NCBI RefSeq assembly: GCF_000143985.1
Contig: NC_014364.1
Coordinates: forward strand, 1,240,001 to 1,304,000
Direction: 5' to 3'
Length of the DNA stretch: 64,000 nt
DNA from: Sediminispirochaeta smaragdinae DSM 11293
GTDB lineage: Bacteria > Spirochaetota > Spirochaetia > DSM-16054 > Sediminispirochaetaceae
The translations under genes were made by a program, and so were the position numbers. How positions within the stretch are numbered: the first letter of the stretch is position 1; each line of letters begins with the position of its first letter. Positions 12,567 through 60,645 of this stretch are shown in pieces. The notes below the pieces were generated by a model. The model saw nothing but the letters and a program-made list of their open reading frames with translations. It was not told the origin of the DNA and searched no databases.

Positions 12567-13763
12567 ATGATAAAAAACATACGGATTGTGGCAGCCTGTA
12601 TAGTCCTGCTTTTGCTGGTATGCGGAGCAGTATGTGCAGAACATGGTATTTCTGTCGGAGACTCGGGATCGCCCCTGCAGGAAACCCTTTCGGGGAAGCG
12701 TTTTTTCCGGATGTTCCACGATTTGGATGTAGAGAGCCTCTTCTTTGAGACGGATTCCGAGTCAGGCTTGCTGCAGTTTGAAATTCGAATAGAAGATTCC
12801 GGTGGTGCCGGTTTCTTTCCTGTGGATAAGGGTAGTGTTAGTATATCGGGTTCCCGGGTGACGCTTTCCGGCGAGGAGGGGACAACGATACTGATATTTT
12901 CCGATGAGCCGACCCTTGGAGCAACGTACCATCTTTCTCCCGAAAACTGCACCAACGAAGCTGATATCTATCATTCCACACCGCCTGAAGAGGGCGCGCA
13001 TGTCTTGATCGGCGGTTATGAATGCGTTGTGGCCTCCGCTCCCTATGTTGGAATAGAAGAACAGATCTTACATACTGCTCCGGATCGTTCATCTCCGGTG
13101 TATCACTATAATCAGATATATTATTCCGATCAGAACATGAGTACCGAAAACCTGTATGTATATCCCGGCTGCTGCCGCATACATCCCGGCGAGTACATTG
13201 GTGTGGAAGCTTATACCGTAAAAGAGGATACCATAGACGGTGTGACGGCGCACTGGTTTTTTGTACCTCGTTACGGTGTTGCCTCAAACACTCAAACAAG
13301 CCACGCTGCCTGGGTTTTTGGTGCTGCACTGGAAAAACGAACGGACAGTAGCAGGAGTGAATTCGACTATGCCTCGTTCGGCTATGTCGACCCAAAGCTG
13401 TTTTTCCCTGAGATTGTTTCCTGCGGAGCCCGGCGAATAAGCGCTGCCGAGAATAGTGCCATAGAGAAGCATAGTCACCCTGCAGTTCCCATGGATGTGG
13501 TGTATGCTTCGGATATCGATTGGAAGCAGAAGGGCATCTGTTCCTTGAAAATCGGCAAGGCAATGTGTACGACGGCAAATCTCCGTCTCCGTGCGGCTCC
13601 TGCTATCGAGAGTGATATCATCAGGACAATACCAAAAGATAGGGAGGTACGTATCTTGCAACTTGATAGCGAGGATACCATCGACGGCATTGCTGCAAGA
13701 TGGGTACAGGTTTCGCTGCCCGACGCACTGAGCGGCTGGTGCTTCGGCGGCTATTTGGAGTAG
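12567..13763 (+). CDS. Secreted protein with two bacterial SH3-like domains
   Basis: A 398-residue exported protein. A signal peptide (hydrophobic core IVAACIVLLLLVCGAV, cleavage probably after VCA near residue 24) is followed by an unknown beta-rich region and two SH3_3-like segments. The C-terminal one (about 330-398) has NLRLRAAP, then EDTIDGIAARWVQVS and GWCFGGYLE; the middle one (about 165-260) has the matching EDTIDGVTAHWFFV and AWVFGAALE with a longer insertion. Bacterial SH3 domains often bind cell-wall or envelope glycans. The start has an AAGGAA site. It is followed 14 bases later by another exported protein, suggesting a two-gene envelope operon. The exact function is unknown. Confidence 0.75.
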   Translation: MIKNIRIVAACIVLLLLVCGAVCAEHGISVGDSGSPLQETLSGKRFFRMFHDLDVESLFFETDSESGLLQFEIRIEDSGGAGFFPVDKGSVSISGSRVTLSGEEGTTILIFSDEPTLGATYHLSPENCTNEADIYHSTPPEEGAHVLIGGYECVVASAPYVGIEEQILHTAPDRSSPVYHYNQIYYSDQNMSTENLYVYPGCCRIHPGEYIGVEAYTVKEDTIDGVTAHWFFVPRYGVASNTQTSHAAWVFGAALEKRTDSSRSEFDYASFGYVDPKLFFPEIVSCGARRISAAENSAIEKHSHPAVPMDVVYASDIDWKQKGICSLKIGKAMCTTANLRLRAAPAIESDIIRTIPKDREVRILQLDSEDTIDGIAARWVQVSLPDALSGWCFGGYLE

Positions 13764-38780: not shown

Positions 38781-38862
38781 CACTACCATCAGCATAGGTC
38801 AAATCACCTATGCCAATCCGGGTTTTTTGTCCGCTGAACAAATCCATCCCATCCCTTAGAAT
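38729..38862 (-). pseudogene. Possible antisense coding remnant
   Basis: On the minus strand a 44-codon open stretch reads plausibly as protein (LRDGMDLFSGQKTRIGIGD, then LTYADGSVTNIGDP) and ends at a TAG. It has no start or ribosome site and overlaps the tail of the plus-strand pseudogene. It may be a fragment of another lost gene; I do not recognise the family. Confidence 0.25.
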
Positions 38863-38909: not shown

Positions 38910-40208
38910 ATGAACAGACGTACAAGTATCACGATTTCACTTGTATTGTGCCTTGTTGTTACCGGATCGCTTTTTGCCGGTGGTGAAAGCGAGAAGAATG
39001 CCGAGAGTGGGAAAACAACTATTACATGGTGGGCTCTTTCCGGCGGTGGCGGTGCCGATGATGTGCGTGAAATCTATCGCCGCAATCTTATTAAAGAGTA
39101 CGAAACGGCACATCCTGACGTCGACATCGAACTGACCATGCTCGAAAACGAGGCTTTCAAACAAAAGGTCCAAGTTGCGATTCAAGCGGGCAATCCCCCG
39201 GATATCTTTCACTCCTGGGGTGGTGGCGTCATGGTTGAATACGCTCGGGTTGGAGCCCTCAAGGACATATCGAATTTTGTAGAGAATGAACTTTCTCCAT
39301 CAATTGGGTCCGGTGCCTTAGGCGTATACGGCTACGACGGGAAGTATTACGGGGCTCCCTACGACATGGGGGCGGTGGGCCTCTGGTATAACAAGGCGGT
39401 CTTTGCCGAACTTGGAGTCGATGTCCCGAAGACCTGGCCCGAATTACTCGACATCGTGAAGAAGGCAAAGGCCGCGGGATATATCCCCATTGCTCTCGGT
39501 GGCGGTGACCGCTGGCCGGCCCATTACTGGTGGGTCTATCTTGCCATGCGAATCGGCGGGCAAGAGGCCTTCAATGCCGCCTATGACGGATCGGGTTCTT
39601 TTAAGGATGAGACCTTTGTGAAGGCAGGAGAGATGCTTCTTGATCTTGCCGCTTTGGAACCCTTTCAGACCGGATTTCTCGGCTCTACCTATGATGACGA
39701 GAGCGCTCTGGTAGGAAACGGAAAGGCCGCCATGGAACTCATGGGCCAGTGGGCTCCGGCTGTCCAGGCTGCCAATTCCGAGAGCGGAAAGGGAATCGGC
39801 GACGATCTCGGCTGGTTCTCATTTCCTGCGATTCCCGGCGGTGTCGGTAAAAATAGCGATGTTATGGGAGGTGGCAACGGTTATGTGATCGGTGCAAACG
39901 CTCCCGATGCGGCTCTGGATTTCCTGAAGTTCTTTCTCTCCAGGGAGAACAACATGGAATTGCATAAGGTCGAAGGTATCATTCCCGTGGTAAAGGGGGC
40001 CGAAGAGGTTCTTGCATCGAATCCCAATGCAGTGAAAATCGCCCAGGCGGTTGCCGGTGCAGACTATTATCAGCTGTACTATGATCAGTTTCTGCCTCCA
40101 TCTGTAGGGGAGACAATCAAGGATGCGGTTATGGCCCTGCTTGCGGGAAAGGCAAGCCCGGAAGAAGCTGCGACCATGATCGACGACTCCTGGCAGGCCG
40201 AGAAATAG
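38910..40208 (+). CDS. Sugar ABC transporter substrate-binding protein (CUT1, family 1)
   Basis: A 432-residue family 1 solute-binding protein. The signal peptide (ITISLVLCLVVTGSLFAGG) is followed by a short acidic linker; WWALSGGGGADDV opens the mature lobe and AGNPPDIFHSWGGG is the ligand-domain motif. A strong GAGGAGG site precedes ATG 38910. It begins a run of binding protein, two permeases, GH3, a LacI-like sensor kinase and response regulator, all on one strand. By context it binds a beta-glucoside or beta-xyloside oligosaccharide. A stem-loop separates it from the first permease. Confidence 0.9.
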   Translation: MNRRTSITISLVLCLVVTGSLFAGGESEKNAESGKTTITWWALSGGGGADDVREIYRRNLIKEYETAHPDVDIELTMLENEAFKQKVQVAIQAGNPPDIFHSWGGGVMVEYARVGALKDISNFVENELSPSIGSGALGVYGYDGKYYGAPYDMGAVGLWYNKAVFAELGVDVPKTWPELLDIVKKAKAAGYIPIALGGGDRWPAHYWWVYLAMRIGGQEAFNAAYDGSGSFKDETFVKAGEMLLDLAALEPFQTGFLGSTYDDESALVGNGKAAMELMGQWAPAVQAANSESGKGIGDDLGWFSFPAIPGGVGKNSDVMGGGNGYVIGANAPDAALDFLKFFLSRENNMELHKVEGIIPVVKGAEEVLASNPNAVKIAQAVAGADYYQLYYDQFLPPSVGETIKDAVMALLAGKASPEEAATMIDDSWQAEK

Positions 40209-40220
40209 CCATGCTGTGAA

Positions 40221-40248
40221 AAAGAGGGCCTCCTTCGAGAGGTCCTCT
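40221..40248 (+). terminator. Intercistronic stem-loop between binding protein and permease
   Basis: AAGAGGGCCTC (40221-40231) pairs with GAGGTCCTCTT (40238-40248) through eleven positions with one G-U, around a CTTCGA loop. It is only 12 bases after the binding-protein stop. There is no long T run, so partial termination or 3'-end protection is more likely than full termination. Confidence 0.7.
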
Positions 40249-40272
40249 TGCCCACAAGGAAATACAATCACC

Positions 40273-41175
40273 ATGATGTCTTTAAACAATAAAACGATAT
40301 ACTCGGTGAAAAAAGCCGGCCTTGTTTTTCTGCTCATCACTCCTGCCTTTCTGCTTTTTTTGCTTTTTGTCGTCGTACCTGTCATACAGGCCGGTCATTA
40401 CTCCGTGTATAGATGGAAGGGACTCGGCCCTCTGGAGCAGTTCGTCGGATTGGGGAACTTTTTTCGAATGTTCGGCGAGGATATATTCCTGACCGCTCTT
40501 TGGAACAATCTGAAAGTGGTAATCCTGTCCCTGCTTTTGCAGCTCCCGGTCGCCTTCTTTTTTGCACTCTTGATCGGTAGAAAGCGATTCCCCGGTTCCA
40601 TGCTTTTTCGTGGTATCTATTTTTTCCCCTATATTTTGGCAGAAATCGCAATCGGTATCATCTGGAAATTTATCTATAATCCGGAATTCGGACTTCCGAC
40701 CATGATCGCCTCCTTTGTAAGCGGTGGAGAGACGAAGATTGCCCTGCTTGGAAGTACCGAACACGCCTTTACCGCGATTTTTATCGTCATTTTCTGGAAA
40801 TATATCGGTTTCCACATGATTCTCTACATAGCAGGTCTTCAGAATGTTCCCGATGAGTTGGAGGAGGCTGCGATTATCGATGGGGCATCGAAATTACAGG
40901 TTGTTTTTCATGTCATCATTCCCTGCATGCGCAATACCATAGTCATATCCGTTTTCCTCTCCGTTGTCGGCGCCTTCAATATCTTTGATGTTGTCTGGGC
41001 CATGGGACAGGGCGGGCCGGTCCATTCGACCGAAACCTTGGTGACCTACCTGTATAACTTCGGATTCAAACGTTTTGCCTTCGGATACGGAAGCGCTGTG
41101 GCAATTGTTATCTTCCTGATTTGCCTGGTGTTTAACCTCTTTTATCAAAAATACATCGTGGGAGAGTCGAAGTAA
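40273..41175 (+). CDS. Sugar ABC transporter permease (MalF/UgpA-like)
   Basis: A 300-residue CUT1 permease with six membrane segments and the EAA loop EAAIIDGASKLQVVFHVIIP. The ATG pair at 40273/40276 follows AAGGAA and the stem-loop; an upstream in-frame GTG at 40216 lies inside the hairpin arm and is unlikely. The next permease starts on the base after the stop codon. Confidence 0.9.
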   Translation: MMSLNNKTIYSVKKAGLVFLLITPAFLLFLLFVVVPVIQAGHYSVYRWKGLGPLEQFVGLGNFFRMFGEDIFLTALWNNLKVVILSLLLQLPVAFFFALLIGRKRFPGSMLFRGIYFFPYILAEIAIGIIWKFIYNPEFGLPTMIASFVSGGETKIALLGSTEHAFTAIFIVIFWKYIGFHMILYIAGLQNVPDELEEAAIIDGASKLQVVFHVIIPCMRNTIVISVFLSVVGAFNIFDVVWAMGQGGPVHSTETLVTYLYNFGFKRFAFGYGSAVAIVIFLICLVFNLFYQKYIVGESK

Positions 41176-42057
41176 ATGAGCAGCAAGAGTTTATCTTTAA
41201 CAACGCCGCACATGCGATCACGGCATCGATTATCCGGAAAAAATCATTCGACCATGAAATTCCTGCTTGGATTTTTCATCGCCTTGATCATGTTCTTTCC
41301 CATGTATGCCGTCATCATCTGCAGTGTTAAAACAAACGGACAGGTGTTGTCCGATCCTTTCGGCATTCCGCATCCCTTTGATCTTACGGCCTTCGGCCTT
41401 GTCCTTGGAAAGTCGGGAGAGTTTTGGGGCTTTCTTTACAACTCGATTGTCATAGCGGTTTCGACAATCGTTATTGTTGACCTTTTTGCCATGGCCGCCG
41501 GTATTGCACTCTCGCGGATACGCTTCAAGGGACGGCCCCTGATTTACAATTTTTTCATCATGGGAATGTTGTTTCCCATAACGGTTGCTGTCCTCCCGCT
41601 CTATCTTCAGCTGAGAGATTTGGGGCTGCTTGGCACTCAGGGGGGAGTAATACTGGCCGAAGCGGCCTTCGGACTCCCCATGGCCATCTTTTTATTTACC
41701 GGCTTTTTTAAGGATATTCCCCAGGAATTACAAGATGCCTGCCAGATGGACGGCGGCGGCATGTTTACCTTTTTTTTCAAGATTGTCATTCCGATATCCA
41801 GACCTGTGGTCGCCACCGTTTCGATCATTACATTTATCCAGAGTTGGAACCAATTTCTCTTTCCTCTTCTTGTTCTGGATGATTCGAGTAAGTTTACGAT
41901 TCCCTTGGGAATCATGCAATTTCAGGGACAGTTTACCACCGGGTGGAACCAGGTTATGGCGTTCATCACCATTTCGATTATCCCGATGGCTGCCTTCTAC
42001 TTTTCGGCTCAGCGCTATATTGTTGCCGGCCTGACGGCCGGAGCCGTAAAAGGTTAA
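41176..42057 (+). CDS. Sugar ABC transporter permease (MalG-like)
   Basis: A 293-residue CUT1 permease of normal length. Its EAA loop reads DACQMDGGGMFTFFFKIVIP, with Gly in place of the usual Ala after the Asp-Gly pair, a mild deviation. It ends in the typical VAGLTAGAVKG. Spacing of zero bases to the upstream permease and 17 to the GH3 gene shows an operon. No ATPase gene is nearby. Confidence 0.9.
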   Translation: MSSKSLSLTTPHMRSRHRLSGKNHSTMKFLLGFFIALIMFFPMYAVIICSVKTNGQVLSDPFGIPHPFDLTAFGLVLGKSGEFWGFLYNSIVIAVSTIVIVDLFAMAAGIALSRIRFKGRPLIYNFFIMGMLFPITVAVLPLYLQLRDLGLLGTQGGVILAEAAFGLPMAIFLFTGFFKDIPQELQDACQMDGGGMFTFFFKIVIPISRPVVATVSIITFIQSWNQFLFPLLVLDDSSKFTIPLGIMQFQGQFTTGWNQVMAFITISIIPMAAFYFSAQRYIVAGLTAGAVKG

Positions 42058-42074: not shown

Positions 42075-44429
42075 TTGCAGGATTATCATGATCAGGCTTT
42101 GACATTATGTAAAAAGATGACGATTCATGAGAAGCTGGCCCAGATGTATTCGGTCTGGTTTAACATCAGGCCGGACGGAAGTCTTTGGTTGAAGGATCAC
42201 ACGGGTATGATCGTGACCGAATCCCCTGTTCGTTTTGAAGAGCTGCTGAAAGATGGCGTAGGGGAAATAACCCGGCCGCTGGGAAGCCAGCCGATTGATG
42301 CCCGCACCGCCGTGAAGGCGCTCAATTCGATACAGGAGTTTCTCGTTAAAGGGACGCGTCTCGGTATCCCGGCACTTGCGCACGAGGAGTGTCTTGCGGG
42401 GCTCATGGCAAAGGGGGCAACTTTGTTCCCGTCGGGTATCAGTCTTGGGGCCCTATGGGATGAAGGATTGGTGGAAAAAATCGCAAGGGCCATTGGCGAT
42501 GAGCTCTACTCGGTAGGGAGCAGGCAGGGCTTAGCTCCGGTGCTCGATGTCAGCAGGGATGCCCGTTGGGGCCGGACCGAAGAGTCCATGGGAGAAGACC
42601 CTTATCTTGTCGGTACCCTTGCCACTGCATATGTACGGGGCTTCCAGGGAAATGACGGAAGACTTCTTGCAACATTGAAACATTATGTTGGTCATTCCTT
42701 TTCCGAGGGGGCGAGGAATCATGCACCGGTGAGAATGGGAGAAGACGAGTTGAGTGATGTTATGCTGCTTCCCTTTGAGATGGCGGTAAAACTGGCACAT
42801 GCGGCCTCCGTCATGCCGGCATATCACGATATCGACGGCATTCCCATGCACGCCTCTCTCACCTATCTGCGGGATATCCTTCGCGAAAAGTGGGGCTTCG
42901 ACGGGATTATCGTTTCTGATTATTCGGGTATCGGACAGCTTTGCCACGATCATCGGGTCGCCGAGGATCTCGCCTCTGCCGCTTGTCTTGCAATAGAGGC
43001 TGGAGTCGATGTCGAATTACCCGGGCACGAATGTTATAAAAGCGGGGCCCTTGCTGCGATCGAACGGGGGGATCTTCCCGTCGCCCTTGTCGACGGGTGT
43101 GTGACGAGGGTGCTTGAGCAAAAAATCAGAATAGGACTCTTTGAGCATCCCTACGCCGACGTCGATGCGATCTCCCTGCGGAGTGATGAACATCTCGCTC
43201 TTGCCTACGAGGCTGCGGTTAAATCGATGGTGCTTCTCAAGAATGACGGAATACTCCCCCTCACCACGGGAAAGAAGATCGCCTTGATAGGTCCCCTTGC
43301 CGATGATCCGCTCTGTTTTTTCGGCGGCTATTCCTTCCCCGTACACCATATTCTCAGCTCCCTGGAAGATCGGGATGAGGGGGCTATGACACTGAAGGAG
43401 GTTTTTGAATCAGTTCCTGGAGCACTCTTTTCTTATGCAAAGGGCTGCGACATTCTTTCTCAGCGGCCGAAGGATGCTCCGGTATTTCCCGGTGATGTTC
43501 ACCTCGACGGTAGTGCCCAGCACTCCTATGTCAGCCACGATAAATCGGGATTCCCTTCGGCCATAGAGGTTGCTCGCTCTGCCGATGTTGTTGTCCTTGC
43601 CCTCGGCGATCTTGCCGGACTCTTTCTGGCGGGGACCGTCGGTGAGGGGTCGGATGCCAGTTCCCTCGTATTGCCCGGGGTTCAGCAGGAACTTCTTGAG
43701 GAGCTACTCGGTCTGGGGAAACCGGTGGTGCTCGTTTTGCTGAGTGGAAGACCTTATAGCCTGAAGATTGCGGCCGAGCGATGCAGTGCCATCCTTCAGG
43801 CGTGGCTTCCCGGGCAGAAGGGGGGGCAGGCAGTCGTCGATATCCTGTACGGCAGGCAGAACCCATCCGGCAGACTCCCCGTTTCCATTCCCAAAGCAGC
43901 AGGGGCGATGCCCTTCTTCTACAACCATAAAATCAAATCGGCAGGTACCCCCATTCAGCTCGATTTCGGAGCCACCTATCCCTTCGGCCACGGACTGAAC
44001 TACACCAGCTTTTCCTTCGATGCGTTCCGGCTTGATGATAAAAGGGTGGCCATCGAGGGGGAAATTACCGGAAGCTTTATCGTGAGAAACAGCGGTGAGC
44101 GGGATGGGGAAGAGGTGATTCAGATATATGTCCGCGACCTGTATGCATCCCGGGTGCGTCCCGTAGAGGAGCTTAAGGGGTTTAAACGGGTACACCTCGC
44201 AAAAGGGGAGTCGGCGCTTGTTCGCTTTACCGTTCCTGTCGATATGCTGAACTTCACCAAGGGGAATTTCGTCAGGGTTGTCGAGGCGGGAGCCTTTGAG
44301 ATCTCCATTGGAAGATCTTCCAAGGATATTCTCTTTACCGATACCGTTCAGGTGACAGGCGAGGACCGGATTCTTCCTGAGCAGTGGAATATGCAATCGT
44401 CGATCACGCTATCCCCTTGCGCCTTTTAA
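42075..44429 (+). CDS. Glycoside hydrolase family 3 (beta-glucosidase/beta-xylosidase-like)
   Basis: A 784-residue GH3 enzyme with the three-domain plan: TIM barrel (with GLAPVLDVSRDARWGRTEE, ATLKHYVGHS), alpha/beta sandwich (LLKNDGILPL, RPYSLKIAAE) and a C-terminal fibronectin-III-like domain (NSGERDGEEVIQIYV). The nucleophile is Asp282 in IIVSDYSGIGQL. TTG 42075 is the start because AGGAG lies eight bases before it; an upstream frame from 41943 is inside the permease gene. No signal peptide, so it hydrolyses imported oligosaccharides. Glucoside or xyloside preference is not fixed by the motifs I can see. The sensor kinase gene follows within about 50 bases. Confidence 0.92.
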   Translation: MQDYHDQALTLCKKMTIHEKLAQMYSVWFNIRPDGSLWLKDHTGMIVTESPVRFEELLKDGVGEITRPLGSQPIDARTAVKALNSIQEFLVKGTRLGIPALAHEECLAGLMAKGATLFPSGISLGALWDEGLVEKIARAIGDELYSVGSRQGLAPVLDVSRDARWGRTEESMGEDPYLVGTLATAYVRGFQGNDGRLLATLKHYVGHSFSEGARNHAPVRMGEDELSDVMLLPFEMAVKLAHAASVMPAYHDIDGIPMHASLTYLRDILREKWGFDGIIVSDYSGIGQLCHDHRVAEDLASAACLAIEAGVDVELPGHECYKSGALAAIERGDLPVALVDGCVTRVLEQKIRIGLFEHPYADVDAISLRSDEHLALAYEAAVKSMVLLKNDGILPLTTGKKIALIGPLADDPLCFFGGYSFPVHHILSSLEDRDEGAMTLKEVFESVPGALFSYAKGCDILSQRPKDAPVFPGDVHLDGSAQHSYVSHDKSGFPSAIEVARSADVVVLALGDLAGLFLAGTVGEGSDASSLVLPGVQQELLEELLGLGKPVVLVLLSGRPYSLKIAAERCSAILQAWLPGQKGGQAVVDILYGRQNPSGRLPVSIPKAAGAMPFFYNHKIKSAGTPIQLDFGATYPFGHGLNYTSFSFDAFRLDDKRVAIEGEITGSFIVRNSGERDGEEVIQIYVRDLYASRVRPVEELKGFKRVHLAKGESALVRFTVPVDMLNFTKGNFVRVVEAGAFEISIGRSSKDILFTDTVQVTGEDRILPEQWNMQSSITLSPCAF

Positions 44430-44481
44430 TTGTTTGTCCGACTATTGTGGAGTGCTTGTACGCCGAAGGTCGAAGAGAGAC

Positions 44482-46818
44482 GTGAATAAGAATATTGGTG
44501 TTTTCACCGCTGAGTTGAATGATGCCTACCAGTCGGCCGTCTGGAAGGGCATCGTTTCTCAGGCCCAGACCCGTGAACTGGGTCTGGTCTGCTTCCTTGG
44601 TTCCAGGGTCAAGTCGCCCATCGCAACGGAACAATGTTCGAATATTGCATATTCCCTTGCGGATAAGGAGAATATCGACGGCTTAATCATCATTTCATCG
44701 GCGATTTCCACCTATCTCGATTTTCAGGCGGTTACGGAGCTTTTCCGCATACGAAGCGACCTTCCGCAGGTCTCTGTTGGCTTGGGAATACCCGGGATTC
44801 CAAGCATTATCGTGGACGGCAGAATCGGTATGGTCTCTGTCATACGACATCTGATAGAAGTTCATGCCAAGCGTTCCTTTGCCCTTATCTCGGGACCTTC
44901 CGGGCATCTTGAAGCAGATGCCCGGAAGAAGGCCTTTTTCGATACCCTGGCCGATTATGATATCACCTTCGACCGGCGGCTCATGGTCGAAGGAAGTTTT
45001 GAGCAGCGGTCCGGAAGCAGGGGGGTAAGAGCCCTGCTTGCCGAAGGTATCCCCTTTGATGCGCTGGTTTGTCTGAATGATAAAATGGCCTTGGGAGCAT
45101 TGGACGAGCTGTCGAGGCATGGTATTTCCGTCCCTGATGATGTGGCCCTGGTAGGATTCGACGGCATCGAGGAAGCCCTTTTTTGCCAGCCCCCGCTGAC
45201 GACGGTTCGTCAGCCCTTATTTGAACTTGGTGCGGCCGCAGTAGAAGAGGTGTGTGCACTCATCCAGGGAGGCAAGGGGCAGAATCGCTATCTTAACAGC
45301 AGTGTTAGGGTCGGTGAATCCTGTGGCTGTCGCCATAGCTGGATTCCCGAGGCTGCAGCGATGGACTCCTTCTCGAAAGATCTGGATGAACCGGACCGTG
45401 ATACCATGGCCCTGCTGCGTTCTCTCATCTTTGAAGAAAATGCACCGGCATTTCTGGAGTTCCTGGAAAGGGAAGCGACGTCCGATACCTACAGCGGGCG
45501 GGACCTGCGGCGACTTCATACTCTCTTGTATGCCGTACAGGAAGAGCTCCTGTCGGACGATGAATCCGGAGATCGGTCTATCCTGCGTCGACGGCTGCGG
45601 CTTATATCGACGGGCCTGAGCCGCCTTGCGGAGCTGACAACGAGGATTCTCTCTTCCCGGAGACTTAAGGAGATGGAACGTAATTTCCTCGCACGCTCGA
45701 TCGGTGCCGCCCTTGCCGAGGCCTTTGAGATGGACAGTATTGTCAAAACCCTCTCAAAAGGCTTGGTGAGCCTTGGTTTTTCCGAAGCCTATCTTGTCAT
45801 CTTTCTTGATTCCCGGGATGGCAAGGAGCTCTCAAGGGTCTTTCCCCTGCCCCTTGAAGGGGATGACCCGACGGCGAAGGGCTATGTTTTCAAGACCACC
45901 TCACTCCTTCCTGATCAAATTGATTTCGACTGGAAGCGAAAACAGTGGGTTCTCAAACCTCTTGTCTACCAGCATGAGCCTCTGGGCTATATCCTTTTAC
46001 CGGTGGCGGTGGATGATCCGGCCCTTTACGATCTCTTGAGTAAACAGATATCCAGTACCGTAAAGGGAGCCCGGCTCCTTGAGCAGGTACGCACTCATGA
46101 GAAGAGCCTGGAAGAAGAGGTTTCGCGGCGGACCGCGGAGTTGACCAAGACCAATGAGTGTTTACAAACCGAGGTGGATAAGCGCATCAGGCTTGAGCAG
46201 GAAGTGATCGATATCTCTAACAATACCATGAACCGTATAGGCCAGGATCTTCATGACGACCTGTGTCAGCACCTTGCCGGGATCTCTATGATCACCGAAG
46301 CACTGAAGAATTCGCTGGATCCCGGCAGCCACCCCTACGAGGTATGCACTCAAATAAACGACTTGATTAGCAACTCTGTCGACCGGGCGAAGGGCATAGC
46401 GAGGGGACTCGTTCCTGTGGGACTGAAGGAGAACGGATTTATCGCGGCTGTCGATACCCTGCTTGCGGCCTTGGGAAAGGGGAATACGATTGATATGCGT
46501 CTTGAGCGCTCCCCGGATTTTTTCCTGAAAAACGACGATCGTGCCCTCCAGCTTTATAGAATTGTTCAGGAAGCTTTATCAAATTCAATAAAGCATGCAA
46601 ACTGCTCGCATATTGTGGTAAAACTACATACGCAGCAAAAGGGAAACGGGCGGCTGATTGAGATTATCGATGACGGCACAGGCTTTTCCGATAAAGGTGA
46701 AGGTGATGGCATGGGATTGAAGATTATGCGATATCGTGCCGAGAAGGCTCAGGTGCATCTGCTGATCAGGAATATGGAACCTGGGACAACTATTTCCTGT
46801 CTGATACCACAAGGATAA
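44482..46818 (+). CDS. Cytoplasmic sensor histidine kinase with LacI-type sugar-binding domain
   Basis: A 778-residue soluble kinase of unusual build. Residues 1-290 are a periplasmic-binding-protein-like fold of the LacI/GalR type (NIGVFTAELNDAYQSAVWKG, VPDDVALVGFDGIEEA, LTTVRQP) without the LacI DNA-binding headpiece, followed by ESCGC at about 278-282. A helical and GAF-like region and a coiled coil (RTHEKSLEEEVSRRTAEL) lead to a HisKA_3 core (IGQDLHDDLCQHLAG, His591) and HATPase_c (EALSNSIKHA, DDGTGF, GLKIMRYRA). No membrane helix or signal peptide is visible. It should sense an imported sugar in the cytoplasm and phosphorylate the NarL-type regulator next to it. GTG 44482 is my choice; an upstream TTG at 44434 is possible. 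Confidence 0.85.
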   Translation: MNKNIGVFTAELNDAYQSAVWKGIVSQAQTRELGLVCFLGSRVKSPIATEQCSNIAYSLADKENIDGLIIISSAISTYLDFQAVTELFRIRSDLPQVSVGLGIPGIPSIIVDGRIGMVSVIRHLIEVHAKRSFALISGPSGHLEADARKKAFFDTLADYDITFDRRLMVEGSFEQRSGSRGVRALLAEGIPFDALVCLNDKMALGALDELSRHGISVPDDVALVGFDGIEEALFCQPPLTTVRQPLFELGAAAVEEVCALIQGGKGQNRYLNSSVRVGESCGCRHSWIPEAAAMDSFSKDLDEPDRDTMALLRSLIFEENAPAFLEFLEREATSDTYSGRDLRRLHTLLYAVQEELLSDDESGDRSILRRRLRLISTGLSRLAELTTRILSSRRLKEMERNFLARSIGAALAEAFEMDSIVKTLSKGLVSLGFSEAYLVIFLDSRDGKELSRVFPLPLEGDDPTAKGYVFKTTSLLPDQIDFDWKRKQWVLKPLVYQHEPLGYILLPVAVDDPALYDLLSKQISSTVKGARLLEQVRTHEKSLEEEVSRRTAELTKTNECLQTEVDKRIRLEQEVIDISNNTMNRIGQDLHDDLCQHLAGISMITEALKNSLDPGSHPYEVCTQINDLISNSVDRAKGIARGLVPVGLKENGFIAAVDTLLAALGKGNTIDMRLERSPDFFLKNDDRALQLYRIVQEALSNSIKHANCSHIVVKLHTQQKGNGRLIEIIDDGTGFSDKGEGDGMGLKIMRYRAEKAQVHLLIRNMEPGTTISCLIPQG

Positions 46819-46827
46819 TAAAAAGAT

Positions 46828-47481
46828 ATGAGAAACAGCGTCAGATTCTTGGTTGTTGATGATCATCCTGTTTTCCGACAGGGGCTTGTTGTCCTTCTTT
46901 CCAGTAATCCCCGTTATGAAATTTGTGGTCAGGCCGGGACAATTGAAGAGGCTCTCGATATCTGTCGGGACAAGCTCCCTGATATTGCCCTTGTCGACAT
47001 ATCCCTTTCCCATCAGAATGGACTCGATTTGATTCATCGCTTTAAGTCTTTAGATCCCGATATGCCGATTCTCATTATTTCTATGCATGATGAATTGGTG
47101 TATGCCGAACGGGCCTTAAAATCGGGTGCAAGCGGTTATGTCATGAAGCAGGAGGCCGCGGCCGTGATGCTCGACGCCGTGAAAACGGTTCTTGCGGGGA
47201 AGATTTATGTGTCGCCGGTCATGAACGAACGGCTGCTTGCAACTGTTTTTGGCCAGAGAGAAGAGCGGGACGACCTAGTCAATCTGTTGAGCGATCGGGA
47301 ATTCGAGGTTCTGGAATATATCGGCCAAGGCTATGGGGCTAGTGAGATATCACGAATTCTCAATCTTTCGGTGAAGACGGTAAACACCTATAGAGACCAT
47401 ATCAAAGAAAAGATGAATTTCGACACCGCAGCGGCGATACGCAGATATGCTGTAAAATGGTGGCAGAGTCGCAGGCCTTGA
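46828..47481 (+). CDS. NarL/LuxR-family response regulator
   Basis: A 217-residue response regulator: receiver domain with acidic pair Asp11-Asp12 and phosphoacceptor Asp57 (IALVDISLS), then a LuxR-type helix-turn-helix (LSDREFEVLEYIGQGYGASE, NLSVKTVNTYRDHIKEK, about 152-200). It starts nine bases after the LacI-like kinase and is surely its partner; it probably activates the transporter/GH3 operon in which it lies. Confidence 0.93.
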   Translation: MRNSVRFLVVDDHPVFRQGLVVLLSSNPRYEICGQAGTIEEALDICRDKLPDIALVDISLSHQNGLDLIHRFKSLDPDMPILIISMHDELVYAERALKSGASGYVMKQEAAAVMLDAVKTVLAGKIYVSPVMNERLLATVFGQREERDDLVNLLSDREFEVLEYIGQGYGASEISRILNLSVKTVNTYRDHIKEKMNFDTAAAIRRYAVKWWQSRRP

Positions 47482-47483
47482 TC

Positions 47484-48116
47484 ATGGAAAAGCTTTGCGC
47501 CCTCACCTTTGATGACGGCCCCGATACCGAAAAGAGTTCGAAGGTTCTTGATCGTCTCGAAACCTATGGTATTCCTGCCTCTTTTTTTGTCGTCGGCAAC
47601 CTTATTAGCGACGAAAGCCGTCCTGTTCTGCAGCGTGCCCGCTCTCTTTCGTGTGAGATCGAAAATCACGGCTGGAGTTACGATCCCATGGATACAATGA
47701 ATGCCGAAGAGATCGTACATTCGGTTTCCGCATGTTCGAATGCAATCAGGAAGGCCATCGGTGAGGAGCCCTGTTTTTTCCGTCCCCCAAATCTCGCTCT
47801 TTCTGCTGCCATGTTTGAAGTCGTGCCCTATCCCATGATCGGCGGAATTGCAGCTATGGACTGGCAAGGATGTCATACCACGGCCCGGCAGCGGGCGGAC
47901 AAGATCCTTTCTCAGATCTGCGACGGTGCCATCCTTCTTTTACACGATGTCCAGCCCGACCCGCATCCGACCCCCCAGGCCCTTGATCTGCTGCTTCCCG
48001 CGTTAGGTCATCTCGATTACCGTTGTGTGAGTCTTCGAACCCTTTTTTCCCTTAGGGGAGGGCTTCCCCCCCCGGGAGAGAGGACGCTGTGGAAGATAGT
48101 TCCTCCGCTCTGCTGA
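47484..48116 (+). CDS. Polysaccharide deacetylase-like protein (CE4) with altered metal motif
   Basis: A 210-residue NodB-fold protein. Motif 1 TFDDGPD (Asp10-Asp11), motif 3 RPPN, motif 4 MDWQG and motif 5 ILLLHDVQPD are present. Motif 2, normally H-S/T-x-x-H, here reads ENHGWSYDPMD, so the second histidine metal ligand is not at its usual place and the active metal site may be changed. No signal peptide is visible, whereas most CE4 enzymes are exported. The start is ATG 47484, two bases after the regulator stop; ribosome-site signal is weak (GCAGG), pointing to coupled translation. It may deacetylate an imported, acetylated oligosaccharide. An upstream in-frame ATG at 47457 is an alternative. 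Confidence 0.78.
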   Translation: MEKLCALTFDDGPDTEKSSKVLDRLETYGIPASFFVVGNLISDESRPVLQRARSLSCEIENHGWSYDPMDTMNAEEIVHSVSACSNAIRKAIGEEPCFFRPPNLALSAAMFEVVPYPMIGGIAAMDWQGCHTTARQRADKILSQICDGAILLLHDVQPDPHPTPQALDLLLPALGHLDYRCVSLRTLFSLRGGLPPPGERTLWKIVPPLC

Positions 48117-49550: not shown

Positions 49551-49774
49551 GAAGCTTTCCTCCGATACATCCTTGAATTTGCGGCAGGCAGACAAAGGGG
49601 GGAGGAGCCGTATGTGAGGCTATGCCAAAAGGGGGAAAGCTGTCAAGGTGCCGCCAAAACTGTTCGGTTTTTCCGCTACAATATCACAAAATGTATATTT
49701 TCCCATTAAAAAATGGAATGAAATTGCTGTATTGCCCATGCTATTTTTATTCAAGCGGCAGAAAGGAGGATGAG

Positions 49775-50662
49775 ATGGGGAGAGGGGTGCGTCAGAACAG
49801 CATATGGGAGCATCTGTTTTTTCTCGGTCCGGCGACGATTCTGTTTTTTGTTATTGTTTTTGTTCCCTTTGTGACGGGCTTTATTCATTCATTTAGTGAT
49901 TGGAACGGTATAACAAAAGAACTATCGTTTATCGGCCTTGAAAATTATAAGAATATCTTTACACGGCAGTCTGATTTTCTGCGTACCTTTTGGTTTACCT
50001 TACGTTTTGCCGTTGTGCAGGTTTTCCTGGTCATGGTTATCGGTGTGGCACTTGCCGTGGTTTTGGTCAGGCCCCTTAAATTTCGTGATGCACTGAGGGC
50101 CTCTTTTTATCTTCCCCAAACGATCGGGGGCCTGGTCCTCGGTTTTATCTGGCAGTTCATCTTCATCAACGGTTTCCCCGCTTTCGGGACCCTTTTTCAT
50201 CTTGATTTTATGCAGCTTCCCTGGCTCGGGACCGAAGAGACCGCCTTTACCGCCTTGATCATTGTCAGTACCTGGCAAAATGTGGGGTATGTCATGGTCA
50301 TCATGACCGCCGCTCTCATGGGAATTTCTCGGGATGTTCTGGAATCAGCCGAGATCGACGGTGCCGGTACCTTTCGTACCCTTTTCAGAATCAAACTTCC
50401 CATCTGCATGCCTTTCATCACGGTGGCGCTGTTCTGGAGTACCGCAAATGTTTTCAAGATGTTCGAGCTCAATCTATCACTGACAAAGGGAGGGCCCTAT
50501 GGTTCAACGGTATCCATGGCCCTGGGGATCTACAACGATGCCTTCGTCAAGAATCGCTACGGCCTGGCGTCCGCCGAATCTGTCATATTTTTCCTCATCA
50601 TATTGATCATTACCTCGATTCAGTTGCTTGTGACTAGAAAGAAAGAGGAGGCCTACGCATGA
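49775..50662 (+). CDS. Sugar ABC transporter permease (MalF/UgpA-like)
   Basis: A 295-residue CUT1 permease with six membrane segments and the EAA loop ESAEIDGAGTFRTLFRIKLP. ATG 49775 follows AAGGAGGA; a longer frame reaching 49622 lacks membrane logic and ribosome signal. It is the first gene of a permease, permease, binding protein, GH3 operon, an order unlike the other three clusters, where the binding protein comes first. It overlaps the next permease by four bases. Confidence 0.9.
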   Translation: MGRGVRQNSIWEHLFFLGPATILFFVIVFVPFVTGFIHSFSDWNGITKELSFIGLENYKNIFTRQSDFLRTFWFTLRFAVVQVFLVMVIGVALAVVLVRPLKFRDALRASFYLPQTIGGLVLGFIWQFIFINGFPAFGTLFHLDFMQLPWLGTEETAFTALIIVSTWQNVGYVMVIMTAALMGISRDVLESAEIDGAGTFRTLFRIKLPICMPFITVALFWSTANVFKMFELNLSLTKGGPYGSTVSMALGIYNDAFVKNRYGLASAESVIFFLIILIITSIQLLVTRKKEEAYA

Positions 50663-51498
50663 ACGGCATGAACGGGAGGCAGACCATCTCGTCGATGATC
50701 CTCTATGTGATTATGTTTATAGCGGCCTTTCTTTTTCTTTTCCCGCTACTGTTCGTCTTTCTCAACTCTTTAAAACCATTGCAGGAGATCATTTCTCATC
50801 CCCTTTCTCTGCCAACGAAACTTGTATGGAGCAATTATACGAACGCCTGGAAGATCGTGAATTTCCCTCTTCTGTTCAAGAATACCTTTATCGTCACCCT
50901 CTTTTCCCTTTTGGGAATCATCCTTTTTGCCACGATGGTGGCCTGGTGGCATGTCAGGCATCCTTCTCGCTATTCGAAGATTTTGACGACGGCCATCATC
51001 ATGTCGATCCTGATTCCCTTTGCATCCATCATGATTCCCCTTGTGCAGGTCCTCGGTCGTATCGGCATAAACAATACCCTCTTCGGGGCTGTGCTTACCT
51101 ATTGGGGGATCGGACTGGCCTTTGCCTATTTTCTGATGAGGGGAGCTGTCATGGCTCTTCCCGCTGAACTTGAAGAGGCTGCAAAGATCGACGGATATGG
51201 GACCATCCCTATCTTCTTTACCATCGTTCTGCCGCTTTTGGCTCCCACAATGATGAGTGTCCTTGTGATGGACGGGTTCTGGATCTGGAATGACGTCATG
51301 GTGCCCCTGATCGTTATCAATAACCATGCCCTGAGTACGATCCAGCTTGGTATCAATAGATTATTCGGCATGTATAACAGTAGATGGGAGGTCGCATTGC
51401 CCGCTTTGGTCTTGAGTATGATTCCCATCCTGGTGGTTTTCATTGCCGCTCAGAAAAAGATTATGGCGGGAATCCTCTCTGGTGCGGTGAAAGGATAG
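50659..51498 (+). CDS. Sugar ABC transporter permease (MalG-like)
   Basis: A 279-residue CUT1 permease, partner of the preceding one, with the EAA loop EAAKIDGYGTIPIFFTIVLP and the C-terminal GILSGAVKG. Its start overlaps the upstream stop (ATGA). The binding-protein gene follows after 31 bases. No hairpin is seen in that gap. Confidence 0.9.
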   Translation: MNGMNGRQTISSMILYVIMFIAAFLFLFPLLFVFLNSLKPLQEIISHPLSLPTKLVWSNYTNAWKIVNFPLLFKNTFIVTLFSLLGIILFATMVAWWHVRHPSRYSKILTTAIIMSILIPFASIMIPLVQVLGRIGINNTLFGAVLTYWGIGLAFAYFLMRGAVMALPAELEEAAKIDGYGTIPIFFTIVLPLLAPTMMSVLVMDGFWIWNDVMVPLIVINNHALSTIQLGINRLFGMYNSRWEVALPALVLSMIPILVVFIAAQKKIMAGILSGAVKG

Positions 51499-51529
51499 TG
51501 TTGGAAATGCTATTTCAAAGGAGGAATAT

Positions 51530-52795
51530 ATGAAAATAGCTAAGGGTCTATGCCTAGTATGCTTTGCAGCGGTGTTGCTTTCGCCGCTCATGGCCGGAGG
51601 TCAGGCCGATTCGTCGCAGGCCTCGGGTGGCAAAACGACGATCTTTCTCTCTCAGAGCAAAATCGAGATTGATCAGGCCCTTCGTGATGTAACTACACGC
51701 TATAGCGAGTTGCATCCGAATGTGGAATTTGTCATCGAGTCTTTGAGTGACAATTATACGACCAGCCTTCGTACCAAATTCGCCGGAGGCCAGGCCCCTG
51801 ATATCTTTATGATATTGGGTGGTTCGGAACTCGATCTCTGGCAGTCCCGTCTTGAGGACCTCAGCGATCAGCCTTGGGTTTCCGATATGGTACCGCTGGC
51901 AAAAGAGGGCATAAGCGCCGCCGACGGTACGGTGTACGGCTTTCCCGTATCGGTAGAGGGCTACGGCTATGTCTACAACAAGCGGCTCTTTGCCGAGGCG
52001 GGCATCACCTCGGTCCCGAAGACCTTCACCGAATTACAGCGTGCCGTTGAAAAACTGAAGCAGGCGGGAATACAGCCCCTTGCAGGTACCTACATGGATT
52101 GGTATCAGGCGGGAATGTTTCTGGTAAATATGGGAATTGCCAGGCAGCCCGATCCCCTTGCCTTCATACAGGGCTTAAACGATGGAAGCGAAACCTTTGT
52201 CGGAAACGAAATCTTCGAGGAGGTTGCCAATTTCATCCTCTACGATTTCTCTCAGTGCGAATCTCCCCTGAACACCGGCTTTAATCAGCAGACAGCCCTC
52301 CTGTTCAGTGAGTCTATTGCCATGACCCTTGGAGGAAACTGGCTTCAGCCCTCCATCGATAGTGCCAACCCCGATATGCAGGTTGGTTTGATACCGATGC
52401 CGATCAACGATGATGTTGCAAGCAACGACAAGCTCTATGCCGGAGTTACGGGATACTGGGTCATTAATAAAGAATCTCCGGCGAAAGAAGAGGCCAAAGC
52501 CTTCCTTACCTGGCTTGCAACGAGCGAAGAGGGACGGAAAGCGATGACGGACCAGCTCCTTTTTATCCCGGCCTTCACCAGCTTCGAAGCAAATCCCGAC
52601 AAGGTAGGGGCCTTGAGTTCGGATCTCTCCCGCTATGCAAGCCAGGGGAAGGTCTATGGCATCTACAATTCCATGTACCCGGCAGGCGGGGCGGAATACT
52701 TCGGAAATGCGGTTCAGAAGCTTGTGGCGGGAAAACTCGATGTCCCCGGCTTTCTCGAAGAGCTGCAAACACGCTGGGATCAGTTAAAGAGATAG
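51530..52795 (+). CDS. Sugar ABC transporter substrate-binding protein (CUT1, family 1)
   Basis: A 421-residue family 1 solute-binding protein. Signal peptide GLCLVCFAAVLLSPLMAGG; mature part with FAGGQAPDIFMILGGSE and a C-terminal lobe motif GKLDVPGFLEELQTRW. AAAGGAGG lies eight bases before ATG 51530. It follows the two permease genes and precedes a GH3 gene by 23 bases. By context it binds a beta-glucoside-type oligosaccharide. The lack of a stem-loop on either side distinguishes it from the other three binding-protein genes. Confidence 0.9.
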   Translation: MKIAKGLCLVCFAAVLLSPLMAGGQADSSQASGGKTTIFLSQSKIEIDQALRDVTTRYSELHPNVEFVIESLSDNYTTSLRTKFAGGQAPDIFMILGGSELDLWQSRLEDLSDQPWVSDMVPLAKEGISAADGTVYGFPVSVEGYGYVYNKRLFAEAGITSVPKTFTELQRAVEKLKQAGIQPLAGTYMDWYQAGMFLVNMGIARQPDPLAFIQGLNDGSETFVGNEIFEEVANFILYDFSQCESPLNTGFNQQTALLFSESIAMTLGGNWLQPSIDSANPDMQVGLIPMPINDDVASNDKLYAGVTGYWVINKESPAKEEAKAFLTWLATSEEGRKAMTDQLLFIPAFTSFEANPDKVGALSSDLSRYASQGKVYGIYNSMYPAGGAEYFGNAVQKLVAGKLDVPGFLEELQTRWDQLKR

Positions 52796-52818
52796 GATAA
52801 AGGGATAGGAACAGAGGA

Positions 52819-55188
52819 ATGACGGGAACAAGAGCAATCGAAACGATTCTTGGGCAGATGAGCCTTGATGAAAAACTTCGCTTATGCACCGGTGACGGGC
52901 TATGGCATACGGCAGCGTTCCCCAGCCTTGGGGTTCCCGCTGTGCTGATGAGCGACGGGACCAGCGGAGTACGGCTGCAAAAGGAGTCTAAAGGGCCTGA
53001 TGATACCGATTTTGCCTATAATGCGATCAACAGCAGCTTTGACAGCGATGAGGCTCTGACCTGTACCTATGCCGCAACCTGCTTTCCCTCCGGATCGACG
53101 ATCTCTTGTTCCTGGGATACCGAGCTTATACAGGAGGTGGGCCGAGCCATTGCCGAGGAGTGCAGGGCCTTAGGCATCCGTCTTCTGCTGGGGCCCGGAA
53201 TCAATATCCGCAGACATCCCCTCACCGCACGTAATTTCGAATACTATTCCGAGGATCCCTTTCTGACCGGCCGTATGGGTGCGGCCATGGTGAAGGGGCT
53301 TGCGGAAAGGGGGGTGGGTGCGGTCGTCAAACACTTTGCCTGCCATCACAGCGACAGTAACAGAACCAGGGTTGATGAGATCTGTGACCGTCGTACGCTC
53401 CACGAGATATACCTTGCCGCCTTTGAGTATATTGTCAAGACGGCGCACCCTGTCGGGGTGATGAGCTCCTACAACAAGATAAACGGGGTCTATGCCTCTG
53501 CGAACCATTGGCTTTTGACCGAGGTTCTGCGGGACCGTTGGGGCTTCGACGGGTTCGTTATCAGCGACTGGGGAGGGGTGCCGGATCCTGTGGCCGCTTC
53601 AAAGGCGGGTTTGGACCTGCAGATGCCGGAGTCCCTCGGCTCTAAAGCGTATCTGCGTGAGCGTATCCTGGCAGGCGAACTCGATGAGGCGCACATCGAC
53701 GGGCGGGTGCGTAACATCCTCAGGATGGTATTTCGCCTTGAGGCGATGCGGCAGGAAGGCGGTCAGGTCGACACCCGTATGCATCATGATCTTGCCAGAA
53801 GGGCCGCTGCAGAGTCGATCGTGCTTTTGCGAAATGAGAACCATGTGCTACCGCTTTCGGCCTCCTGCGGCACGATTGCCGTTATCGGTGAGCTTGCCCT
53901 CTCTCCCCTTTACCAGGGGACAGGCTGTGCGATTGTGAACAGCAGGCGGGTGGATACCCCTCTCGACTGCATCAAGGAGCAGGCGCCGGCTGAGACAAAG
54001 GTGCTCTTCAGCCGGGGGTACCGCGGCGCCGGAGAGGACGACGGAGGGGGTGCCGGAGGGGAGGATACTTCCATGGTGGAGGAGGCGAGGGCCTGTGCCG
54101 CCTCCTCCGATGTCGTCGTATTCTTTCTTGGAAGCTTTCTGCCTCCGGAATCCGATCACTACAATCGGGAGCATATGCGCGTTGAAGCCAGCCATGAGCG
54201 TGTGCTGGAAGCGGTGCTCTCCACGGGAAAACCGGTAGTTGTCATTTTGCAGTCAGGCGATGCTGTTGAAATGGCCTGGAGCGACCGGGTCGATGCACTG
54301 CTGATGACGGGATTCGGCGGTGAGGGTGTGGGGGATGCGATTGCCAGGGTGCTCTTTGGAACGGTTAATCCCAGCGGAAGGTTGCCGGTAACAATCCCCA
54401 AAAGCCTCCGGCAAACCCCCGCTTTTACCAGCTTTCCCGGTGACGGTTTCAACCTTGTCGTCGGTGAAGGTATATTCACCGGCTACCGTTACTATGATTA
54501 CCGGGGACTGGAACCCCTTTTTCCCTTCGGCTACGGTCTCTCCTACACCAGATTTACCTATGGTGATGTGAAACTCTCTTCCGAAACCGTCAGGCTACCG
54601 GAATGCCTCGAGATAGCGGTGGAGGTGGAAAACAGCGGGGAGTTCTTCGGAAAAGAGGTCGTTCAACTCTATCTTTCGCAAAGCTCTCCACGAATACCCC
54701 GTCCGGTGCGGGAATTGAAGGGCTTTGCAAAGCTCTCCCTTGCCCCGGGAGAGAAAAAACGTGCCTGCTTTACCCTATGTGAACGGGATTTTTCCTATTT
54801 CGATGAAAGTCGGGATGGATGGAGCGCCGACAGCGACGCCTTCCTTATCGAGATCGGTTCTTCAAGTCGGAATATCAAGGCCTCTGTCCCGGTCCGGATT
54901 ATCGCCCCTCCGAAGCCTTTACGGATACTGAATGCCGAAAGTGGCTTTTCCGAGATTCTTGAGAGCCCGATAAGCCGGGATATGCTCTTCGAGTTTCTTA
55001 TCGACCGGGGAATCATCGCCAGATCCGATGTAACGGAAGCCCTCGAACATGCCTTGCGCAAAAGTTTCTGGGGACTTTACTCGTATCTCGATATGAATGG
55101 AAATGGCAAGGTCTCGCTTCCCATGGTCAGGGATTTGACCGGGACCATGAACCGCGCCATCGAAGCGGCCGCACAGGGTGCCGTCTAA
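52819..55188 (+). CDS. Glycoside hydrolase family 3 beta-glucosidase-like, with C-terminal extension
   Basis: A 789-residue cytoplasmic GH3 enzyme. TIM barrel with GPGINIRRHPLTARNFEYYSED and KHFACHHSDSNRT; nucleophile Asp250 in FVISDWGGVPDPV; alpha/beta sandwich with VILQSGDAVEMAW and a fibronectin-like domain ending near 685. The last 95 residues are an additional helical part that contains DMNGNGKVSLPM (about 754-765), which resembles a calcium-binding EF-hand loop but lacks the Glu at its last position. It differs clearly from the GH3 gene at 42075, so the two clusters serve different substrates. AGAGG precedes ATG 52819. Its stop overlaps the convergent AraC gene by four bases. Confidence 0.92.
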   Translation: MTGTRAIETILGQMSLDEKLRLCTGDGLWHTAAFPSLGVPAVLMSDGTSGVRLQKESKGPDDTDFAYNAINSSFDSDEALTCTYAATCFPSGSTISCSWDTELIQEVGRAIAEECRALGIRLLLGPGINIRRHPLTARNFEYYSEDPFLTGRMGAAMVKGLAERGVGAVVKHFACHHSDSNRTRVDEICDRRTLHEIYLAAFEYIVKTAHPVGVMSSYNKINGVYASANHWLLTEVLRDRWGFDGFVISDWGGVPDPVAASKAGLDLQMPESLGSKAYLRERILAGELDEAHIDGRVRNILRMVFRLEAMRQEGGQVDTRMHHDLARRAAAESIVLLRNENHVLPLSASCGTIAVIGELALSPLYQGTGCAIVNSRRVDTPLDCIKEQAPAETKVLFSRGYRGAGEDDGGGAGGEDTSMVEEARACAASSDVVVFFLGSFLPPESDHYNREHMRVEASHERVLEAVLSTGKPVVVILQSGDAVEMAWSDRVDALLMTGFGGEGVGDAIARVLFGTVNPSGRLPVTIPKSLRQTPAFTSFPGDGFNLVVGEGIFTGYRYYDYRGLEPLFPFGYGLSYTRFTYGDVKLSSETVRLPECLEIAVEVENSGEFFGKEVVQLYLSQSSPRIPRPVRELKGFAKLSLAPGEKKRACFTLCERDFSYFDESRDGWSADSDAFLIEIGSSSRNIKASVPVRIIAPPKPLRILNAESGFSEILESPISRDMLFEFLIDRGIIARSDVTEALEHALRKSFWGLYSYLDMNGNGKVSLPMVRDLTGTMNRAIEAAAQGAV

Positions 55189-59571: not shown

Positions 59572-60645
59572 ATGATGAAAAAATATGAACAGGTTGAACA
59601 CTATATTCTCGAGAAGATCGAAAGCGGTAGGTTTCCGGTGGGAAGCAAGATTCCTTCCGAAGATGAGCTTATTGAACGGCTCCAAGTGAGTAGAAATCCC
59701 GTACGCCGTGCCCTTGAAAATCTGATGAAGGATGGGGTGGTCTATAAGATTCAGGGGAGCGGAAGTTTCGTCAAGGATGTTTCCATACCCCAGGCAATAG
59801 ACCTTTATGCCATTCTCCCATCCGAAAGTTTCAATCTCGAGTCAGCCATCATCGAGGGGATGAGAAAGGCCCTTGACGATAATCACCATAAGCATGTCCA
59901 TCTGATCCTCCAGCGTCCGGGAAAGAATACCATGGAACAGATCGACATTCTCAATCTCATCCCTAAGGATCGTAAGGGGGGGATTATTTTTCTACCCGCC
60001 GTTTCCGTCAATCGTGCCGCCAATCGTCTTCTTGCCGCGAATATCAGAAAATTCGAAAAGGCACAATTTCCGGTTATTCAGGTGGACAACTACATTCCGG
60101 AATATGAGGGTAACTACATCATCACCGATCACCGCAAAGCGTCCTGTCAGATGACGGAATATCTTTTGTCGATGGGGCATAAGCATATTGCGGTCCTCTA
60201 TCAGAATCAGCATAAGCCGTCGGTGAAGCTTCGGCTGCAGGGAATCAAACAGGCGTATGAGCAGCAGGAGATAGCTCCGACCATGCTACACCGCTTTGAT
60301 CTTTCCGGAAAACCTATCACCAGAGAGTTCGTCGAAGAATTGCTTGAGAGCGGCTGCAGCGCAGCCTTTGGGCTTGAGTGTGGTTTTATCTACGATCTGT
60401 ATCGGCAGTGCCTCTCTATGGGACTGGAGATTCCCAAGGACCTTTCTCTCTGTTCATTCGACAACCATAGCTATCCCCCTTCAGAGCGCGATTTTTTTGC
60501 CGCCGTCATTCAGAAGCTCAATACCATCGGATACTATTCCGTACAAATACTGCTTGATTTAATCAACAAGAAAACCCAGGGCAATATTGAATTGCTGATC
60601 AATGCACAGCTACATCAAGGACGAAGCATTGGAAAAATTACTTAG
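59572..60645 (+). CDS. GntR-family transcriptional regulator with LacI-type sensor domain (AraR-like)
   Basis: A 357-residue repressor combining an N-terminal GntR winged helix (KYEQVEHYILEKIESGRF, SEDELIERLQVSRNPVRRAL, residues 3-65) with a C-terminal LacI/GalR-type periplasmic-binding fold (about 80-357). This is the AraR architecture. It should bind a sugar from the pathway and release its operator. It starts right after the permease stop (ATG ATG at 59572), so it regulates from inside its own operon, while the AraC gene upstream gives a second layer of control. The PHP gene begins inside or at its 3' end. Confidence 0.9.
   Translation: MMKKYEQVEHYILEKIESGRFPVGSKIPSEDELIERLQVSRNPVRRALENLMKDGVVYKIQGSGSFVKDVSIPQAIDLYAILPSESFNLESAIIEGMRKALDDNHHKHVHLILQRPGKNTMEQIDILNLIPKDRKGGIIFLPAVSVNRAANRLLAANIRKFEKAQFPVIQVDNYIPEYEGNYIITDHRKASCQMTEYLLSMGHKHIAVLYQNQHKPSVKLRLQGIKQAYEQQEIAPTMLHRFDLSGKPITREFVEELLESGCSAAFGLECGFIYDLYRQCLSMGLEIPKDLSLCSFDNHSYPPSERDFFAAVIQKLNTIGYYSVQILLDLINKKTQGNIELLINAQLHQGRSIGKIT

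Follow-up and report, generated by a model that had tools for sequence, protein, structure and literature searches.

The product of the ORF at 44434-46818 in the window (the whole 64-kb stretch of DNA analysed) is a soluble histidine kinase with a LacI-type ligand domain, but no DNA-binding headpiece, at its N-terminus. With the response regulator encoded next to it, this kinase forms a NarL-type two-component system in which the LacI ligand domain is the sensor. Computation established the architecture, solubility, and fold, the gene linkage, and a conserved operator with its spacing; comparative evidence supports the circuit well. It is rather likely that the system senses an imported xylan-derived sugar (xylobiose, a longer xylo-oligosaccharide, or xylose) and activates its own operon. 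We infer the ligand and the direction of signalling, together with phosphotransfer and activation.

Architecture, fold and solubility of the kinase

44482-46818, + strand: soluble LacI-domain histidine kinase, 778 aa, in an ORF opening at TTG 44434 (domains, hydropathy, model, fold search)
44482-45318, + strand: LacI/GalR-type ligand-binding domain, residues 1-279 (Pfam, profile, AlphaFold, Foldseek)
45319-45330, + strand: SCGC motif, residues 280-283 (sequence, alignment, count over modules)
45334-46086, + strand: helical linker and GAF-like domain, residues 285-535 (predicted model and fold search)
46231-46422, + strand: HisKA_3 dimerisation/phosphoacceptor domain (Pfam; His591, codon 46252-46254, invariant)
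46543-46809, + strand: HATPase_c kinase domain (Pfam, conserved residues in alignment)
46828-47481, + strand: NarL/FixJ-type response regulator, Asp57 (Pfam, receiver inspection)

The original prediction placed the kinase and its regulator at 44434-47481. Both ORFs are present, and the ORF list of the window gives the kinase 794 aa counted from the TTG; however, the start is probably GTG 44482, because AAGAGAG lies directly 5' of it and the sister species retains the same GTG. All residue numbers refer to this 778-aa form. The domains follow in the order LacI ligand domain, SCGC, GAF-like domain, coiled coil, HisKA_3, and HATPase_c. The Pfam search matched Peripla_BP_3 (E 2.4e-25), Peripla_BP_1, HisKA_3, and HATPase_c; the NCBIfam match was also of the LacI type. 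The expected ESCGC motif is present, as RVGESCGCRH.

The kinase was predicted to lack membrane helices, and the hydropathy scan and inspection of the N-terminus found neither a membrane helix nor a signal peptide. Its hydropathy peak (19-residue window) is 1.45, compared with 3.08 and 2.57 in the adjoining permeases and 2.09 in the signal region of the sugar-binding protein. An AlphaFold model built from 14 orthologues (pLDDT 80.8) had as its best Foldseek match the LacI ancestor 9nt4, with D-fucose (E 1.6e-18), and the top matches of the N-terminal part are LacI-family ligand domains. Residues 1-280 thus have a clear LacI fold, as had been proposed. The headpiece is absent, also as proposed: the fold starts at residue 4, and a headpiece cannot hide upstream because the last base of the stop codon of the GH3 gene is 44429. 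In the ligand domain, R148, N199, and D227, which line up by eye with sugar-contact pocket residues of LacI, are invariant in the 14 orthologues. The assignment as a HisKA_3 kinase was borne out by Pfam and the alignment, in which the phosphoacceptor His591 (in HDxLCQ) and the ATP-site catalytic residues are invariant in the same set.

The middle region of the kinase had no match to Pfam GAF, and a profile search against PDB sequences gave chance-level matches only, so that a fold search was required. Modelled from 22 sequences (pLDDT 89), this region consists of helices plus a GAF-like fold. Nearly all the top Foldseek matches of residues 285-535 are GAF domains, with weak E-values near 1e-3 (best 8e-4); the GAF assignment, which comes from fold similarity, is therefore marginal.

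Several known systems share parts of this architecture. NarX/NarQ, UhpB, DegS, and NreB have the same HisKA_3 and HATPase_c core with a Response_reg and GerE partner, and soluble HisKA_3 kinases are known in DegS and NreB; here, by contrast, the sensor consists of a LacI-type ligand domain and a GAF-like domain. The repressors CytR, RbsR, CcpA, and CelR share the fold and sequence of the ligand domain, whereas the present protein has no DNA-binding headpiece, has a kinase output, and belongs with ligand domains on a separate branch. In E. coli XylR and B. subtilis AraR a LacI-type ligand domain is likewise fused to a foreign output, but these are one-component DNA-binding proteins without a GAF-like domain, kinase, or partner. 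The XylFII-LytS/YesN system of clostridia also uses a periplasmic-binding-protein fold for two-component control related to xylose; it senses xylose extracellularly through a membrane kinase, whereas a single soluble protein is used here. The Peripla_BP domain has also been recorded on GGDEF/EAL signalling outputs, the same idea of a domain placed on an output, in a review that takes the clan as periplasmic and whose consulted passages do not mention a LacI-kinase family (PMC8846402). A literature search restricted to papers open without subscription found none on this kinase architecture, an absence that is weak evidence.

The protein at 59572-60645 in the window was expected to be a one-component repressor with the same ligand fold. 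It does contain a LacI ligand domain, but a very divergent one joined to a GntR-type HTH (Pfam); it is an AraR-like chimera and not a classical LacI repressor.

Gene linkage and the probable ligand

38910-40208, + strand: ABC sugar-binding protein, SBP_bac_1 (Pfam, NCBIfam)
40216-41175, + strand: ABC permease (Pfam)
41176-42057, + strand: ABC permease (Pfam)
42075-44429, + strand: GH3 enzyme, beta-xylosidase/alpha-L-arabinosidase-like, probable TTG start (Pfam, NCBIfam, nearest structure)

The kinase gene follows the GH3 gene and precedes the regulator gene in a GH3/ABC operon, in agreement with the original prediction; the order is sugar-binding protein, two permeases, GH3, kinase, and regulator. 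Pfam found GH3 N- and C-terminal and Fn3-like domains in the gene upstream of the kinase. The listed GH3 ORF opens at 41943 and overlaps the permease; a TTG at 42075, preceded by AGGAG, is more probable as the start. Other spirochaetes have relatives of the kinase that are about 30-43% identical to it over the full length. In the clusters L073-L079 the genes run kinase, regulator, sugar-binding protein, permease, permease, and GH3, relative to which the order in the window is rotated. Sugar permeases lie nearby in 12 of the 13 window-type loci. The families of the binding protein and permeases vary from cluster to cluster; the enzyme role is stable.

For the window GH3 enzyme, the nearest solved structure is a beta-xylosidase and the best model is NF052329 (beta-xylosidase/alpha-L-arabinosidase, NCBIfam), at 801 bits, below the equivalog cut-off of 1050. 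The cluster GH3 enzymes of this kind score best against a beta-xylosidase model. None of the model scores reaches its curated cut-off, so that beta-xylosidase is the probable rather than the established activity. In four clusters (L081-L084), a GH52 enzyme replaces or joins the GH3; to our knowledge, beta-xylosidase is the only activity in this CAZy family. The same cluster position is occupied by three beta-xylosidase types (GH3 types and GH52), which are either unrelated or only distantly related to one another. The case for a xylan-derived ligand rests chiefly on this interchange of unrelated enzymes with a common activity. The cluster enzymes would favour xylo-oligosaccharides or xylose over cellobiose or glucose, and the ligand of the kinase is probably a xylo-oligosaccharide or xylose. 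The organism uses D-xylose (Spirochaeta smaragdinae SEBR 4228; PMC3035371).

The same soluble relay and operon might instead respond to an arabino- or gluco-oligosaccharide or a phosphorylated intermediate. Mixed activities are frequent among GH3 enzymes, and the best GH3 model also covers arabinosidase. Different clusters carry importers of different families, so that the transported sugar could differ. The organism grows on several sugars (PMC3035371). We nevertheless regard such a ligand as unlikely, given the three beta-xylosidase types at one position, and prefer the xylan-derived sugar. Among the genes flanking the clusters (TrkA/TrkH, Amt, NifA-like), no link to xylan was found.

A polysaccharide deacetylase-like gene (47457-48116), kept in the sister species, overlaps the end of the regulator gene. 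A second ABC importer and GH3 set is located at 49622-55188; the best model of its GH3 is an arabinopyranosidase, below the cut-off.

Predicted operator and proposed signal relay

38793-38812, no strand: predicted operator of the response regulator, CATAGGTCAAATCACCTATG (motif learned from other genomes; exact-match search)
38835-38862, + strand: promoter-like site TGAACA-16-TAGAAT, whose -10-like hexamer begins 44 bp 3' of the operator (conserved spacing)

The regulator ORF (217 aa; Pfam Response_reg and GerE) lies directly after the kinase and contains the receiver phospho-Asp and a GerE HTH, consistent with the proposed NarL-type partner. A regulator adjoins the kinase in 19 of the 22 HisKA_3 loci examined and is two genes off in one more. 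The sequences preceding the binding-protein genes of the clusters have a palindrome in common. The Gibbs motif learned from 12 regions of other genomes, with the window left out of training, scored 250, against 165-177 in shuffles. Its best site in the window is 38793-38812 (24.7, against 18.2 at the next place), 97 bases 5' of the binding-protein start. The exact pattern has five matches in 13 genomes, each before importer genes of a kinase cluster, and this site is the only one in its own genome.

In eight clusters, not independent since some are related, 44-45 bp separate the operator end from a TAGNRT hexamer. This gap is 42 bp in a ninth cluster and 22 bp in two others; L073 and L079 lack such a hexamer at the common distance. 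Scanning with the promoter consensus by itself did not outperform shuffled sequences, and the window match is weak, so that the promoter-like site is argued from the conserved spacing, not from the consensus match. From the hexamer spacing, the operator centre would lie near -67 or -44, a position usual for activators, which suggests an activator site. In L082 two operator copies (11207-11226 and 13398-13417) were found in the same cluster, one preceding GH52 and the other the importer genes.

The soluble architecture, conserved catalytic residues, adjacent regulator, and shared operator in front of the import and enzyme genes all fit the earlier proposal that sugar is sensed inside the cell through a two-component relay. 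The bound sugar would close the ligand domain; the SCGC hinge, then the GAF-like domain and the coiled coil, might relay this change to the HisKA_3 core. The core would autophosphorylate at His591 and then phosphorylate Asp57 of the regulator, which could bind the palindrome at 38793-38812 and activate a single operon of binding protein, two permeases, beta-xylosidase, kinase, and regulator. Activation of one operon holding importer, enzyme, kinase, and regulator would give positive feedback on uptake. Alternatively, the phosphorylated regulator may repress, or the sugar-bound kinase may act mainly as a phosphatase, so that the operon is released rather than activated. LacI ligand domains are best known from repressors, and kinases of the HisKA_3 type may be bifunctional; however, an operator 5' of the -35 region at near-constant phase is the typical placement of an activator, and release seems improbable. 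A repressor sugar pocket that feeds a phosphorelay would let intracellular sugar sensing gain amplification as well as phosphatase control, and the circuit is complete enough to be tested, from ligand class, kinase, and regulator to operator and operon.

A LacI-SCGC-GAF-like module with many outputs

The suggested survey found LacI-domain kinases in other spirochaetes. In addition, this ligand domain, in most cases accompanied by SCGC and the GAF-like region, occurs joined to other outputs: AraC-type HTH, LuxR-type HTH, GGDEF, HisKA, the MCP signalling domain, HD-GYP, and GGDEF-EAL. The 117 distinct module proteins comprise AraC (29), HisKA_3 (29), GGDEF (22), HisKA (13), MCP (9), GerE (4), HD-GYP (3), and GGDEF-EAL (2) types, the remainder being truncated or without assigned output. 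Hosts include spirochaetes, genomes of the phylum of Butyrivibrio, and Deinococcus peraridilitoris. The SCGC motif is present in 103 of the 117. It is enriched rather than exclusive, since RRSCGC is also the ending of a Bacillota repressor (L132), and other repressors end in RESCG or RASCG. A pattern scan of genome contigs matched only an ordinary Butyrivibrio LacI repressor.

Phylogenetic trees were built from modules collected by similarity to this kinase and repressors from few genomes. In the quick tree (164 domains), a branch with support 99 separates every module from 47 repressors, and there are 17 output changes. The mixture-model tree (86 domains) split the modules from 33 sampled repressors (100/100), with about 16 output changes; the trees are unrooted and the bootstrap is not fully settled. 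We see an even chance that the LacI ligand domain, SCGC, and GAF-like unit form an ancient intracellular sugar-sensor module that split once from the LacI repressors and has moved among at least eight outputs including soluble chemoreceptors, such that imported sugar steers transcription, c-di-GMP, and swimming. SCGC could be required as a metal, redox, or hinge element wherever the domain controls an output other than its own headpiece. Conservation of SCGC and the GAF-like domain across many outputs could also mean that the ligand domain has lost sugar binding and makes only dimer or protein contacts, the true input being received by the GAF-like domain, but this is very improbable given the invariant R148, N199, and D227 and a clade nearly always next to sugar genes. 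The broader module is more surprising than the kinase/regulator circuit, and offers a natural domain-swap set for learning how one ligand fold drives many outputs.

MCP chemoreceptors with the same LacI ligand domain and SCGC were found in L086, L070, L105, L109, and L111, and the four checked have no membrane helix. Chemotaxis toward intracellular sugar is possible for these soluble proteins; the module suggests that spirochaetes may swim toward sugar already taken up. A 1270-aa protein (L088:3014-6826) combines the LacI domain with GAF-like, HisKA, receiver, and SpoIIE phosphatase domains. L091:4383-9550 and L110:158-5367 each encode two LacI-domain signalling proteins, head to tail with overlapping ends. 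In the organism's own genome, a 675-aa protein (L026:487-2514) has a LacI headpiece followed by apparently two tandem ligand domains.
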